Shown here one piece after another: positions 14,379 to 33,782 of a stretch of 34,781 nt of DNA (positions are counted from its first letter, which is position 1; the number at the start of each line of letters is the position of its first letter). Position numbers and translations under genes: made by a program. Source of the stretch: Acidobacteria bacterium 5-1 (GTDB taxonomy: Bacteria; Acidobacteriota; Blastocatellia; Pyrinomonadales; Pyrinomonadaceae); assembly GCA_002050455.1 (NCBI GenBank), contig MWZA01000221.1, positions 1 to 34,781 on the forward strand. Direction: 5' to 3'. The notes under the pieces were generated by a model, which had not been told where the DNA came from, made no database searches, and worked only from the letters and a program-made list of their open reading frames with translations.

Positions 14379-14461
14379 TTCAATAAAGTAAGTTTGCAAT
14401 AAATACAAAACTTTGTAAATCGGAAATCAACCGCAAATTTTCGATTCGCCTGCTTCGATGC

Positions 14462-14782
14462 TCATTTTCTCATTCGCGTTTGCATTTCTTGGCGTGTTTC
14501 TTCCCGAATTTCTTCGTCGTCTTCGGCTTCAAACACTTCAACCAGTGCAAAAGGCGTTCCACCCAAACGCCGCAATTCCCACGTTTCGCGGTCTTTGCCC
14601 GAAGCGCGTGAAAACCAAGCCGCGTCCGTATCGGACGAAATAATCTCGACATCACCAAAAAGATTTTCCGGCGAAGCCGACAACTTTTGTTTTGTCGGCG
14701 CAGAAAGCAAAACACGGCTTAAATTCCAGCCGTGCTTTTTATATTGTGCCAAGATTTCTTGAATCTCGTGTGCTTCAATCAT
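14462..14782 (-). CDS. Hypothetical small acidic protein
   Basis: A 106-residue protein starting at ATG 14782, whose A is the last base of the preceding lipoprotein stop (TAATG), so the two are translationally coupled. The sequence has no membrane segment. It ends with a very acidic then mixed-charge tail (EAEDDEEIREETRQEMQTRMRK). No family is recognised. The central part (FGDVEIISSDTDAAWFSR, RETWELRRLGGTPFALVEVF) looks like a small alpha/beta fold. Coupling to a lipoprotein suggests a common process, otherwise unknown. Confidence 0.65.
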   Translation of the reverse strand: MIEAHEIQEILAQYKKHGWNLSRVLLSAPTKQKLSASPENLFGDVEIISSDTDAAWFSRASGKDRETWELRRLGGTPFALVEVFEAEDDEEIREETRQEMQTRMRK

Positions 14783-27529: not shown

Positions 27530-28597
27530 CTATATTGGCATATTCTCTAATTCGGAATCCTTTTTTCTTTTTCGTCCGAAAAACCACGCAATAAAAATTG
27601 AAATAACATACAAACACATCATCGGTGTCGCAAAAAGCATCATATTCGGAATATCGGCGGTTGGTGAAACCACTGCCGCGACAATCATAATTACCACAAT
27701 CGCAATCTTCCAACTTCTGACCAAAAATCCTGCAGTTACCAAACCGATTCTGGCTAAAACGTATGTGATTGCCGGCATCTGAAAAATAACGCCCATCGCC
27801 AGCATGATCAGCGTAACAAAATCAAGATAATCACTGGCACGAAGCAGCAAACGAAAATCCTCGCCAAGTCCAAGTAAATATCTTAACGCCGGCGGAAAAA
27901 GAATGTAATACGCAAACGCCGAGCCGATAATGAATGAAATTGAGGAAAGCACAATAAATGGAGTAACATATGAGCGTTCGTGTTTGTAAAGCGCGGGTGA
28001 AATAAAGCCCCAAATCTGCCACAACAAAAATGGAATTGATAAGGCGATTGCTGCATATAGCGAAACGGTTACATACAGCGTGAAAGGTTCAACCGCTGTT
28101 GTCACAATCATTCTTTCGTCCGTGCTTGTATTTTCAGTCGGTTCTTCAAAATTTACCGGCAAACGGATTCCTTTCGGAATTATTGCGTTGTATGTAAAAA
28201 TAGATTCGTCGGTAAAAAGCCCGATTCTTCCCTGCCCGTCTGTCGTAAATATCGCTTTTACGGAAGTTCCCGGCGAAACAACGCCCACTCCGAGTTTCGT
28301 GGCTTGGTCAAAGACATATCTTCCAGTGTCGCCTTCCGTTAAATTATCAAGTGATAAAACCTTCTCATTTCCAGTTAAACCTTCAACCGGAACTTCGCGT
28401 CTTTCAGCTTCCGAAAGTGCTTGGCGAATCGGGACGGACAAAAAATTATAGATTTCGTCGGATACAAACCAACACAAGAGAAATGCGATAACTACAATTA
28501 TTACAGAATTTATGAGCCTTCGGCGAAATTCGTCCAAATGTTCCAAAAATGACATTTGTTTGCCGAGTTCTTCCTTGTTTGTTTCTTCAGATTCCAT
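27530..28597 (-). CDS. tatC: Sec-independent protein translocase TatC with enlarged first periplasmic loop
   Basis: A 355-residue TatC. The E. coli protein has about 258 residues; the difference is a hydrophilic insert of about 100 residues at positions 62-162, in the first periplasmic loop. Landmarks are the N-terminal SFLEHLDEFRRRL, the conserved cytoplasmic region SPALYKHERSY, and six TM helices. TatC receives twin-arginine signal peptides and forms the translocon with TatA/TatB. It follows tatA on the same strand by 30 bp and ends the cluster. The insert is not recognisable as a known domain. Confidence 0.95.
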   Translation of the reverse strand: MESEETNKEELGKQMSFLEHLDEFRRRLINSVIIVVIAFLLCWFVSDEIYNFLSVPIRQALSEAERREVPVEGLTGNEKVLSLDNLTEGDTGRYVFDQATKLGVGVVSPGTSVKAIFTTDGQGRIGLFTDESIFTYNAIIPKGIRLPVNFEEPTENTSTDERMIVTTAVEPFTLYVTVSLYAAIALSIPFLLWQIWGFISPALYKHERSYVTPFIVLSSISFIIGSAFAYYILFPPALRYLLGLGEDFRLLLRASDYLDFVTLIMLAMGVIFQMPAITYVLARIGLVTAGFLVRSWKIAIVVIMIVAAVVSPTADIPNMMLFATPMMCLYVISIFIAWFFGRKRKKDSELENMPI

Positions 28598-28627: not shown

Positions 28628-29038
28628 TTATAGCCAATCGCGTTTATCTGCAGAGTCTTTCTTAATTATTTCCGTTTTTTGAGGTTGAGGTTGTCCAATA
28701 TTTTTTTCAAAATCTTGGTAATTTATTTCTCTAACTTCCGGCACAAATATTCTATTTTCTTCTGTAACCAAATTTCCACCTATAGAATTTTCGGTAACTT
28801 TCGGTGTTTTTGAAACTGTATTCATTTCTTTTTCAATACTATTACTGTCTCCAAATTTTGCCTCTTGCTCCCAAGTTCTCTTAAAGTCATCAGTCGAGCG
28901 TCGAAACTCCATCATTAACTTACCTATTGTACGAGCTAATTCAGGTATTTTTCTCGGACCAAAAACTATCAAAGCTATTAGCCCTATCAACATTAATTCT
29001 GATGTCCCGATTGACTCGAGTATGAATAAATATAACAT
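28628..29038 (-). CDS. tatA: TatA/TatB family twin-arginine translocase subunit
   Basis: A 136-residue protein with an N-terminal TM helix (TSELMLIGLIALIVFGP), the invariant FGPRKIPEL hinge, and an amphipathic helix (ARTIGKLMMEFRRSTDDFKR). This is the TatA/TatB pattern, forming the pore or receptor with TatC. A Glu/Gly polar residue is present in the TM as in TatB-like proteins, and the long polar tail also fits TatB, so the symbol tatA is tentative. It lies 30 bp before tatC and 70 bp after selD on the same strand, consistent with a tat operon attached to the ori-region cluster. Confidence 0.9.
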   Translation of the reverse strand: MLYLFILESIGTSELMLIGLIALIVFGPRKIPELARTIGKLMMEFRRSTDDFKRTWEQEAKFGDSNSIEKEMNTVSKTPKVTENSIGGNLVTEENRIFVPEVREINYQDFEKNIGQPQPQKTEIIKKDSADKRDWL

Positions 29039-29108: not shown

Positions 29109-30155
29109 CTAATCAACCTTTAATAAGAATCGTTTTTTTGATTTTACTCTGCCGATAATTTTCGCACCTTCAATCCTTTCGATATATTGTTCTGCTTTTT
29201 TTTCTTCTAAACTTATAAGCAATCCGCCCGCCGTTTGAGGGTCAAATAACGCACTCTGCATTTCTCTTGTTACATTTTTATTAAATTTAATGCTTTTGCC
29301 AACATACTCACGATTGTTTTTGTCGCCCCTCGTTAACATTTTTTGCTGAATCAAATCTAATACATCAGGCAAAAGCGGTATTTTACTTGATTCAATTTCA
29401 AGGGTTATGTTGCTTGCCTTCGCCATTTCAAACGCGTGTCCAAGTAATCCAAATCCGGTTATGTCCGTACAAGCATTTGCGCCAACTTTCTGCATTTCTT
29501 TTGATGCATTTTTTGCCGATTTAGTCATTATATTTAATGCGGCTTTTTTTGCTTTTTCACTTGCTTTTTCAAACTTAAGCCCCGTAATTATTACTCCTGT
29601 CCCAATCGGTTTTGTTAAAACCAAAATATCACCTGCTTTCGCGCCTGAGTTTTTTATAATTCTCTTTGGATGAATAATACCGGTTATTGCATAGCCAAAT
29701 TTAATTTCTTGGTCGTCAACCGAATGTCCGCCTAAAACAGCTACCTTCTCCTTATTTAAAGTTTTTTGTCCGCCTAATAGAATTTTTCCCAGCACGTCCC
29801 AATCCCCTTTTTGAGGATAGCAAACAATTGAAAGTGCTGTTAAGGGTGTTCCGCCCATTGCATAAATGTCATTCAAAGAATTTATTGCCGCTATTTGACC
29901 GTAAATTTCCGGTTCATCAGCAACTGGCGTAAAAATATCAACTGTCTGCACCAAACCTATTTGGTCATTTAAACGAAATACACCTGCATCATCAGATGTT
30001 TCAAATCCAACTAATACATCTTCAGTAAAATTTTGTTTTGGAAGTTTGCTCAAAACTTGAGCAAGGTCACCTGGGGCAAGTTTGGAAACTCAACCCGCGC
30101 CTGACACCATTTCCGTTAATCTCTTTTGTTCCATAACTTTAGTAATTGCAGTCAT
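29109..30155 (-). CDS. selD: Selenide, water dikinase SelD, a selenoprotein with in-frame UGA
   Basis: A 348-residue protein if UGA at 30092-30090 is read as selenocysteine (U22). The start ATG 30155 overlaps the parB stop (ATGA). The N-terminus is [12 protein letters not shown] then LTEMVSGAGUVSKLAPGDL. The family active site is (C/U)xxK in GAG(C/U)xxK(L/I)xP, so U22 and Lys25 align with E. coli Cys17 and Lys20. The rest is the AIRS/PurM-type fold: TDDAG-like FETSDDAGVF, TVDIFTPVADEP, GGHSVDDQEIKFG, TDITGFGLLGH and DPQTAGGLL. It makes selenophosphate from selenide and ATP, the selenium donor for Sec and selenouridine. Reading from 30053 alone would lose the catalytic residue. A hairpin just after the UGA is a plausible SECIS. 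Confidence 0.93.
30054..30083 (-). promoter_or_regulatory. Candidate bacterial SECIS hairpin after the selD UGA
   Basis: Starting 6 bases after the UGA, minus-strand AACTTG pairs with CAAGTT 18 bases later. Between the arms is an apical CAGGTGACCTTG that can fold into a short stem with a G-rich loop. This is the position and size of bacterial SECIS elements, which bind SelB. The loop details are not a proof; the UGA position in the active site is the main evidence. Confidence 0.6.
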
Positions 30156-31018
30156 TTACCATCTATAATCAAATCATAAATTCTATTTAAATCTGATTCG
30201 CTATAATATTCAATTTCTATTTTCCCACCAGTCCCTTTCCCGTCAGGAATTATATGAATTTGCGTGCTCAACTTTCTTCTCAATTTGGCTTCTGCGGTTT
30301 TTATATTTGCATCAATTTTTGGTTTTATTAGCTTATTATTAAATTCTTTTAATAGGTCCTTTCCTACTCTTTTAACAGCTTTTTCTGTTTCCCTAACTGA
30401 TAACGTCATTTCTAACACTTTATGAGCTATTCTTCTTTGTAATTCAACATCATCAGTCATTAAAAGGGCTCTTCCATGTCCCGGCGATATTTTTTCTTCC
30501 TCAACAAGTTTTTGAATATCTTCAGGAAGTTTTAATAAACGTAAGCAAGTTGTTATTACTGTGCGATTTTTCCCTACTCTTTCTGCAATCATCTCCTGTG
30601 TTAAACCTATTGAAATTATTAAATTTTTATAAGCTTTAGCTTCTTCAATCGCATTTAAATCCTGTCTTTGTATATTTTCAATTAAAGCTAACTCTAGCAG
30701 TTTATTATCATTTACTTCTTTAATAATCGCCGGAACTTTTGGCAAACCGGCTTTTTGTGAAGCTCTCCAACGTCTTTCACCGGCGATAATTTGATAACGT
30801 CCACCTCTTCGTCTAACTACTATTGGTTGTACTACACCATTAGCCTTTATTGACTGTGCTAATTCCTGTAAATTTTCTTCATTAAAATTAATTCTTGGTT
30901 GCTCAGAATTAGGATCAATTAAATCTACATCAATTTCTAGAAACTCTTCATTGTATTTATTTTTTCTTTCTTCTCCTAATAAGGCATTTAAACCCCTTCC
31001 TAAAGCTTTTTTACTCAT
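30152..31018 (-). CDS. parB: Chromosome-partitioning protein ParB
   Basis: A 288-residue ParB/Spo0J. Residues 35-90 show IDPNSEQPR and the CTPase motif GERRWRA (80-86). The DNA-binding helix-turn-helix is around 135-160 ([20 protein letters not shown]). The basic C-terminal region [12 protein letters not shown] and the terminal ISEIYYxx-type segment ([19 protein letters not shown]) dimerise. It binds parS near the origin, loads SMC and works with ParA. Its start overlaps the parA stop by 8 bp and its stop overlaps selD. Located beside mnmG, as in many bacteria. Confidence 0.96.
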
Positions 31019-31772
31019 GACTTAATATCTCCTTTGCTAATTGTATATAACTTTCTGCTCCGCGAGATCGAATGTCGTATAAAATTATTGGTTTGCCGTA
31101 ACTTGGTGCTTCTGCTAACCTTACATTACGCGGTATTACGGTATTTAGCACTTGTGAACCATAAAAATCCCTTAAATCTTTGGCTACGGCTGCTGAAAGA
31201 TTTGTCCTCTCATCATACATTGTTAATAACAGACCCTCTATTGTTAATTGTGGATTTAAACCACGTCTTATCCGTGCTAATGTGTCAAATAATTCTGTTA
31301 CCCCTTCCAAAGCAAAATATTCACACTGGATAGGCACTAATAAAGAGTTAGCCGCTGTTAATCCATTTAAAGTGAGTAAGCCCAATGATGGAGGGCAATC
31401 TATTATAATGAAGTCATAATCTTCTTTTATTTCATTTAATACTATCTTTAATTTATACTCCCGCTCCTTTTCATCAACTAATTCAATTTCTGCACCTGCC
31501 AAGTTTTTATCGGCTGGTAAAACCCATAATAAGGGTAATTCCGTTGTTTGAATTACTTTACTTATTTTTTCCTTTAAAATTAATACGTTGTATAATGTTT
31601 TTTGTGAAATTGTTCGTTTTATTCCAGCCCCAGATGTTGTATTTCCCTGAGGGTCTGCATCCACCAATAATACCCTTTTCTCTTCTACTGCTAAACCGGC
31701 AGCTAAATTAATTGAAGTTGTTGTCTTTCCAACTCCTCCTTTTTGATTTGCCACTGCAATTATTTTACCCAT
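31011..31772 (-). CDS. parA: Chromosome-partitioning ATPase ParA/Soj
   Basis: A 253-residue deviant-Walker ATPase. Walker A is KGGVGKTT (11-18) with the signature Lys, followed by [15 protein letters not shown] and [14 protein letters not shown]. It drives segregation with ParB and regulates replication initiation. It ends in AKEILSHE, overlapping parB. Upstream, a 35-bp inverted repeat separates it from mnmG. No separate Shine-Dalgarno stands out in the A/T-rich leader. Confidence 0.97.
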
Positions 31773-31895: not shown

Positions 31896-33782
31896 TTACT
31901 TTGAATAAGAAGATTTATTCGCACAAAGATGAACCAAAACTGTAGAAATAGCAGATGGAGTAAGACCGATAATATTTCGAATTTGACCAAAAGTTTGAGG
32001 TTTAGCCCTTTCTAACCGTTCTGTCATTTCATTAGACAAGCCACTTAAATTTTTAAAATCAAATTTTTCAGGAATTTTTAAATTGTCGCTGTGTAATAAT
32101 CTTTCATTGGCAATTCTTTGTGTTTTAATATAACCGTTATAAAGAGAATCAGCTAAAGCCGTTTCTAAATCCGAAAATTTAATTATAGAACTTATCTTAT
32201 TAGGTAAAAGGCGAAAAATCAATTCGGGATTAACTCCTTTTCTATGTGAAAGTTGAGATAAACTAATTTTATCTCCCAAATCACATTCTAATATTTGGGT
32301 TATTGTTCTATATTGGACGTCAGAGCGTTTTAGTCTGGTATTATCCAGAGTATTTCTTAAAAGAGCAATTCTATCACGTTTTTGATTAAACTTTACCCAC
32401 TCATTATTTTCTAAAAGACCACATTCATGTCCTCTAGGTGACAGACGTTGGTCAGCATTGTCATGTCTTAATGTTAATCGAGCTTCTGCCCGTGAAGTGA
32501 AAATCCGATATGGTTCATCAACACCATGTCGAATTAAATCATCAATCAAAACCCCAATATAAGCTTCATCTCTTCTCAATTGAAAAATATTTCTCTTATT
32601 TACATAAAAAACTGCATTTATTCCCGCGATTAATCCTTGACAAGCAGCTTCTTCATAACCAGTTGTGCCATTAATTTGACCTGCAAGGAAAAGTCCTTTG
32701 ATACGATTAGTTTCTAGTGATGGTCGTAATTCTCTCGGGTCTATAAAATCATATTCAATCGCATAACCTGGACGAATAATTTTTACATTTTCAAAACCAT
32801 TAATCATTTTAAGTAAAGATTGTTGTAACTCAGCGGGCAATGAAGTGGAAAAACCATTTAAATACACTTCATTTGTGTTATAACCCTCGGGCTCAAGAAA
32901 AAGTTGATGACGATTTTTATCAGCAAACTTTACAACTTTGTCTTCGATAGAAGGACAATAACGTGGTCCGATGCCTTTTATTTTACCTGAGTAAAGTGGA
33001 GACTGTTGTAAATTTTCACGAATTTTGTTGTGCAAATTATTATTTGTAAAACCAATATAACAATTTATTTGGGATTGTGGGATTTCTTCGGTAGAAAATG
33101 AAAAGTTAACCGGCTTCTCATCAGGGGGTTGGATTTCAAAAGCGTCCCAATCTATTGTTCTACCATCAAGCCGCGGGGGTGTTCCGGTTTTTAAACGTCC
33201 GACTGGAAACCCGATTTTCTTTAAACTTTGAGCTAATTCATTTGAGGCAGGTTCTCCGGCACGCCCGCCCGAAAAACTTCTTCTTCCAGTATGAATCGTC
33301 CCATTTAAAAAAGTCCCGGTTGCAACAATAACGGATTTACTTCCAAACTTACGAGTGTCTTGCAATTCCACACCAATAACCTTATTATTTTCAATAATTA
33401 AATCTACTATAACTCCTTGACGAAGATGAAGATTTGGAGTAGCTTCAAGCACACGACGCATCTCTGTTCGGTAAAGTGCGCGGTCAGCTTGGGCGCGCGG
33501 TGATTGAACAGCCGGACCTCGTGAACGATTTAAAAGTCGAAATTGGATACCGGTGCGGTCAATAATACGACCCATAATACCGCCTAATGCATCAATTTCA
33601 CGAACAATATGTCCTTTGGCAATTCCGCCAATAGCCGGATTACAAGACATTTGCCCAATAAAGTCCAAATTAATAGTAACAAGTGCGGTTTCCGCACCAA
33701 GACGTGCAGACGCAGAAGCAGCTTCGCAGCCTGCGTGTCCCGCTCCTATAACAATTACATCAAAAACTTCATCAAAAATCAT
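31896..33782 (-). CDS. mnmG: tRNA uridine-5-carboxymethylaminomethyl modification enzyme MnmG (GidA)
   Basis: A 628-residue FAD protein. The Rossmann motif [10 protein letters not shown] is at 13-22, followed by [25 protein letters not shown], whose core GGIAKGH is invariant, and later [26 protein letters not shown] and [16 protein letters not shown]. With MnmE it makes the cmnm5 group on U34 of several tRNAs. Length matches the family. The gene is typical of origin regions, next to parAB. A promoter candidate is seen 100 bp upstream. The usual rsmG (gidB) neighbour is not between mnmG and parA; the inverted repeat takes that place. Confidence 0.97.

Follow-up and report, generated by a model that had tools for sequence, protein, structure and literature searches.

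Sec-containing SelD (Sec, selenocysteine) is a long-known selenoprotein family, as described in the portions of the literature used here (PMC1794560, PMC4561486, PMC13188914). Parts of PMC1794560 place SelD with the bacterial selenoproteins of widest distribution and record three selenoprotein families with four selenoproteins for Acidobacteria. Sec is present in 19% of the SelD genes of a reference set (part of PMC4561486), and an acidobacteriotal test genome contains three known selenoproteins (part of PMC12013277). In the literature searched, with its partial coverage, no description of the SelD of Blastocatellia or of the parAB-selD gene order was found.

The selD gene described here is similar to the Sec-containing SelD genes (bacterial SPS2) outlined in parts of PMC1794560 and PMC4561486. 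They share the UGA at the position of the catalytic Cys, the presence of selA and selB and a stem-loop downstream of the UGA. There is no essential difference between them; particular to the present gene are the position of the loop, 33 bases after the UGA, and that of selD, behind parB. The present selD is ordinary in kind.

The product also resembles the structure chains 3u0o, which we take to be E. coli SelD, and 2yye, 2zod and 2zau, presumably Aquifex SelD, in sequence family and in the positions of the catalytic residue and the Lys. The aligned chains carry Cys at the site, and the matched part of 2zau begins after it. Aquifex SelD presumably carries Sec in its native form, the solved chain being a Cys variant.

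Reading frame and active site of selD

The window, a stretch of 34,781 nucleotides, is contig C101 of the draft assembly G000 (3.2 Mb, 223 contigs, 79% complete). On its minus strand a TGA at 30092-30090 lies in frame with 21 sense codons upstream, counted back to 30155, and 326 downstream, and the stop codon of selD ends at 29109. The ORF finder puts the selD start at TTG 30053 and leaves the active site outside the gene. This bears out the first-pass annotation, which held that the frame from 30053 lacks the catalytic residue and that automatic annotation would shorten the gene.

The same annotation proposed that extension through the UGA restores the SelD active site, and this proposal stands. 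The read-through product is similar to the TIGR00476 selD model over its full length (352.9 bits, cut-off 125) and matches structure chains named selenide, water dikinase. The alignment with 3u0o covers residues 12-318 and places U22 on C17 and K25 on K20, so that both the catalytic Cys/Sec and the Lys are accounted for. The TGA thus corresponds to U22 when residues are counted from 30155 and to U15 when they are counted from 30134. The residues around and ahead of the UGA are conserved in relatives. The match is the only one to SelD in this genome, as represented by the 79% complete assembly.

Start codon and gene neighbourhood

The start at 30155, chosen in the first pass, gives a product of 348 residues, and that at 30134 gives 341. 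We prefer the latter, because the 91% identical locus L018 lacks any ATG, GTG or TTG ahead of its Met8-equivalent codon, and because ATG directly precedes a conserved RLTEM-type motif, at the Met8 position, in 28 of 30 loci (TTG is found there in L031 and L035). Met8 (30134-30132) is therefore the more likely start by sequence comparison, and selD with Sec would occupy 29109-30134 on the minus strand. The ATGA overlap with parB noted earlier does exist in this sequence; it is not conserved, as L018 has none of the three start codons there.

All the neighbours of selD considered here are on the minus strand. parB (30152-31018; PF02195, PF17762) is the next gene upstream, followed further upstream by parA (31011-31772; PF13614, 225.6 bits) and mnmG (gidA; 31896-33782; PF01134, 567.7 bits). 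Downstream of selD are a tatA-type gene (28628-29038; PF02416) and tatC (27530-28597; PF00902). ParA and ParB are found ahead of selD in every near locus (L017-L035, 19 loci), and Tat genes also come into view in 14 of these. ParB is likewise seen in all 35 named loci run (L091-L124 and L152, a subset of the 62 named loci fetched). Thus, the location of selD is a feature of the clade; the parAB-selD order is usual there, and not unusual as had been supposed. In 11 more distant loci (L036-L046, flanks up to 1.5 kb) none of the five neighbours searched was found.

In genome G028 (99% complete) the order mnmG-parA-parB-tatA-tatC is kept, with tatA directly after parB and no selD between them. Neither selA nor selC is over the cut-offs in this genome, and it has no SelD-level match.

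Conservation of the UGA

Judged by its nearest relatives with named SelD, which are MAGs with the titles Acidobacteria, Pyrinomonadaceae or Blastocatellia bacterium, the genome probably belongs to an uncultured member of Pyrinomonadaceae (Acidobacteriota). We searched the proteins of 59 genomes of the class, G000 included, for SelD. It occurs with one in-frame TGA in 48 of them, again counting G000 (in G009 and G035 the gene is in pieces), and without TGA in five (G037, G041, G045, G049 and G053), where the site is Cys in every case. No SelD-level match was found in the remaining six (G005, G006, G008, G011, G012 and G028). Among the named loci, 61 of the 62 fetched are readable at the UGA site; 60 of these have TGA and one, L101, has Cys. 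Hence, the UGA of the present gene stands where homologues (L101 and L177-L181) carry Cys, and Cys is the other residue at the site in all six relatives.

Locus L101 (JACMMN010000106.1, 2209-8117) belongs to a Pyrinomonadaceae MAG. Its SelD is 67% identical to the present one, the codon at the site is TGC and the par-tat neighbourhood is retained. We regard it as an apparent Sec-to-Cys change.

In G005, G006, G008, G011 and G012 selA is present and selC is over the cut-off in all except G005, yet both SelD and parB, its usual upstream neighbour, are missing. Perhaps the same selD-parB block was lost from these bins, yet G008 is 95% complete. G002 has a second Sec-SelD on contig C97, which is probably L096 (MWYY01000084.1). 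The coverage given in the record names, 2.9 for the L096 contig versus 17.3, suggests that this copy is perhaps a contamination.

SECIS-like hairpin downstream of the UGA

A SECIS-like stem-loop of 8 bp is located at 30064-30046 (minus strand), with the loop GUU at 30056-30054 and 33 bases between the UGA and the loop. For all counts of helix pairing we used alignment A1 of 29 sequences, that is, 30 loci minus L027, which was left out for its deletion; the start-codon, Gln/Leu codon and recoding or energy comparisons include L027 and refer to 30 loci. In the helix (columns 29-36 with 40-47) 98.3% of the 232 cells are paired, compared with 91.1% in shuffles, and both sides have changed in 24 cells, compared with a shuffle mean of 7.8. 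None of 500 shuffles reaches its paired fraction or its number of doubly changed cells, and sliding the helix lowers the pairing to 20-50%. Shuffles often score as high on two of the five covariation measures, with 224 of 500 reaching the three pairs with a double change and 498 the eight extra pair types. The facing Gln and Leu codons are CAA/TTG in 20 loci and CAG/CTG in nine, with no mixed pair among these 29; the thirtieth, L027, has the deletion.

The hairpin is equally stable in 53 of 1000 synonymous recodings of this gene, and the evidence for it thus comes from the set of sequences, not from this sequence alone. In the same test the number ranges from 0 to 248 in the other 28 intact loci and is 688 in L027. 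The 66-base fold of this gene has z = -1.01.

The bSECISearch model of a bacterial SECIS, taken here from part of PMC13188914, has a loop of 3-9 nt, a stem of 4-16 bp, a G within the first two loop positions, a spacing of 16-37 nt and an energy of at most -7.5 kcal/mol. With its 3-nt loop, 8 bp, G first and then U, and the spacing of 33, the present hairpin fits the model, and its isolated-stem energy of -7.5 kcal/mol is exactly on the limit. This limit is missed in seven of the 30 loci (L020, L021, L027, L030, L033, L034 and L035).

The hairpin proposed in the first pass, beginning 6 bases after the UGA, is not confirmed; the supported one is that at 30064-30046. The candidate identifiable at the proposed place, an AAACTTG...CAAGTTT helix, has 79.8% of its cells paired, as in shuffles, with no compensatory changes, and was rejected. 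Another candidate, a helix of 4 bp that takes in part of the UGA, has 95.7% of its cells paired. It exceeds all of 500 shuffles in pairing, in the number of doubly changed cells (9) and in the covariation score. Its doubly changed cells are all at one pair, where they track a Val/Ala change common to lineages, and shared ancestry by itself may be enough to exceed shuffles of this kind.

In the Cys-containing L101 the stem is broken, with 5/8 pairs, and the best model hairpin has an energy of +1.5 kcal/mol. The set of its relatives (L091-L124 and L152) comprises 35 loci with L101 itself, or 33 without L101 and the deletion locus L103. All eight pairs are formed in 32 of these 33 and seven in L115; ten of the 33 have sequences already present in the 30-locus set. 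L103 is the same locus as L027 (G004:C361), a UGA-containing selD in which the deletion takes out the 3' arm of the hairpin. The selA of G004 is also split in two matches, either through decay or through an assembly error.

A more distant set of 26 SelD loci (L125-L151 without L140) was inspected for hairpins, and its counts have no chance control. Fourteen of these loci (L126-L131, L133-L138, L142 and L147) are of Bacillota, Rossellomorea, Alkalihalobacterium and Maledivibacter among them. Their SelD proteins are 43-49% identical to the present one and likewise have the UGA, and 12 of the 14 loci carry an 8/8-paired stem at +33, its sequence being different from that of the present stem. In eight loci of the set (L132, L134, L143, L145 and L148-L151) the loop of the best model hairpin is at +16 or +17, and five (L125, L139, L141, L144 and L146) show neither the +16/+17 nor the +33 register. 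We suggest from this comparison that SelD SECIS elements may exist in a near (~17) and a far (33) register, which cut across phyla. Both registers are inside the published spacing range.

Sec machinery of the genome

The genome encodes selA (C191:35775-37166; 551.1 bits, cut-off 267.9) and selB (C216:859-2763; 394.3 bits, cut-off 242.25). In the class, selA is over the cut-off in 57 of the 59 genomes, with G007 and G028 missing it. A tRNA-Sec is over the cut-off of 47 in 55 of the 59, where the best match is never below 60.8 bits; G000, G005, G007 and G028 fall short of the cut-off, the last narrowly (46.8). Hence, of the Sec system that the first-pass annotation expected in this genome, selA and selB are present and selC was not found; the best RF01852 match in G000, with 42.5 bits, is a tRNA-Ser. 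A selC over the cut-off was likewise not found in the closest relative G007, and a DNA-similarity search for selC in G000 and G007, run without a positive control, gave nothing. ARAGORN predicts tRNA-SeC (tca) in all five same-genus loci tested out of the 30 loci fetched.

The surroundings of selC in relatives suggest where the gene may be. In all eight relatives whose selC flanks were inspected by eye, a same-looking ORF is located within about 450 bases of selC, and in L074 this ORF is DprA. In G000 only the last 43 codons of dprA are present; contig C215 (13,439 bases) ends 2 bases away from them, and the missing front of the gene, the side where selC would lie, falls beyond this end. Since the contig ends inside dprA, the neighbour of selC in relatives, the selC of G000 is most likely in an assembly gap.

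Other selenoproteins and uses of selenium

The selenoprotein families searched were SelD, Fdh-alpha and AhpC-TSA. The search for AhpC-TSA covered 10 genomes and gave 23 matches in G000, 14 of which are listed; two of these 14 carry one TGA, which makes at least two UGA genes besides selD. In the match at C214:1511-1894 (L161) TPGU is aligned with TPGC of 5enu, and in that at C14:9066-9437 (L162) FTGGU is aligned with FTGIC of 1xxu, with the UGA on the catalytic Cys in both. We take the aligned Cys of 5enu and 1xxu to be the peroxidatic one. Judged on the matched stretches only, the former scores 158.3 against the NCBIfam cut-off of 140 for thioredoxin-dependent thiol peroxidase, and the latter reaches no family cut-off. 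The search for other UGA-containing genes, advised in the first pass, thus yielded at least two peroxiredoxins. As these genes exist, selD is not the sole selenoprotein gene, and a loop that maintains only itself was ruled out.

Formate dehydrogenase alpha gave no match in G000 at E <= 1e-60. A candidate second UGA gene at window position 14429 was rejected by eye, as its upstream stretch overlaps the ORF 14462-14782 in another frame and has no recognisable motif. A selenouridine synthase over the cut-off was found in none of the 59 genomes, which is in line with part of PMC1794560, where the selenouridine trait is absent from the Acidobacteria then sequenced.

Proposed role of selD and alternative explanations

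We suggest, with a probability of about 0.96 on the sequence evidence, that the gene is a bacterial selD with Sec as the catalytic residue, decoded by means of SelB and the stem-loop, and with a product that feeds SelA. The identification of selD as a selenoprotein gene in the first pass is thus supported by the in-frame UGA aligned with the catalytic Cys, by its conservation across the class, by selA and selB and by the two further UGA genes, and additionally by the covarying SECIS-like hairpin, which is broken in the Cys-containing relative. SelB with Sec-tRNA would bind to the stem-loop, which lies 33 bases downstream of the UGA, and the ribosome would then read the UGA at 30092-30090 as Sec. 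The resulting SelD would make selenophosphate from selenide and ATP. SelA would use the selenophosphate for Sec-tRNA, which would supply SelD itself and at least two peroxiredoxins.

The UGA could also be a sequencing error or a sign of decay, so that the gene either is dead or codes for a functional protein with Cys. The genome is indeed a fragmented and incomplete draft, and the relative L027 combines the UGA with a deletion in the downstream region. However, an error or decay is hardly credible, because SelD has one in-frame TGA in 48 of the 59 genomes, the site is TGA in 60 of the 61 named loci that are readable there, and the present gene has 326 intact codons after the UGA and a covarying hairpin. 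With translation from TTG 30053, the product would be SelD-like, with 314 residues and another function, and would lack the Cys/Sec loop. It is the frame given by a mechanical ORF caller, and the wider SelD family includes proteins without the catalytic loop. Nevertheless, such a start is very unlikely, given that relatives conserve the sequence surrounding and preceding the UGA and that the genome has selA, selB and further UGA genes.

A reading of the UGA as another amino acid, through a Trp code or suppression, is about as improbable as an error or decay. We found no support for it, and it would be a strange coincidence for UGA to stand at three catalytic Cys positions. Besides, three of the 18 window ORFs checked end in TGA, so that TGA seems to serve as a stop too, and the alternative residue at the site in six relatives is Cys. 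Sec at the UGA remains our preferred reading.

A broader interpretation is speculative, and we consider it rather unlikely as a whole. In it, the Sec form is the only SelD of the clade and forms an obligate positive-feedback loop, possibly a selenium switch of the all-or-none type, with selD retained next to parAB and the +33 SECIS register common with Bacillota. As no selenouridine synthase is over the cut-off in the genomes searched, the loop would serve selenoproteins only. If SelD exists solely in the Sec form, it has to be asked how cells would start the use of selenium from zero.

The annotation that cuts off the SelD active site is now corrected. Genes for the use of Sec are widespread in an acidobacterial class, as is evident from the distribution of selA. 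L101, with Cys at the site and the hairpin lost, represents a natural test of the role of the hairpin. We also note a difference close to the active site: at the Gly19 codon (window 30101-30099) the present protein reads GAGU, and most par-linked relatives have CAGU, with a Cys three residues ahead of the UGA.
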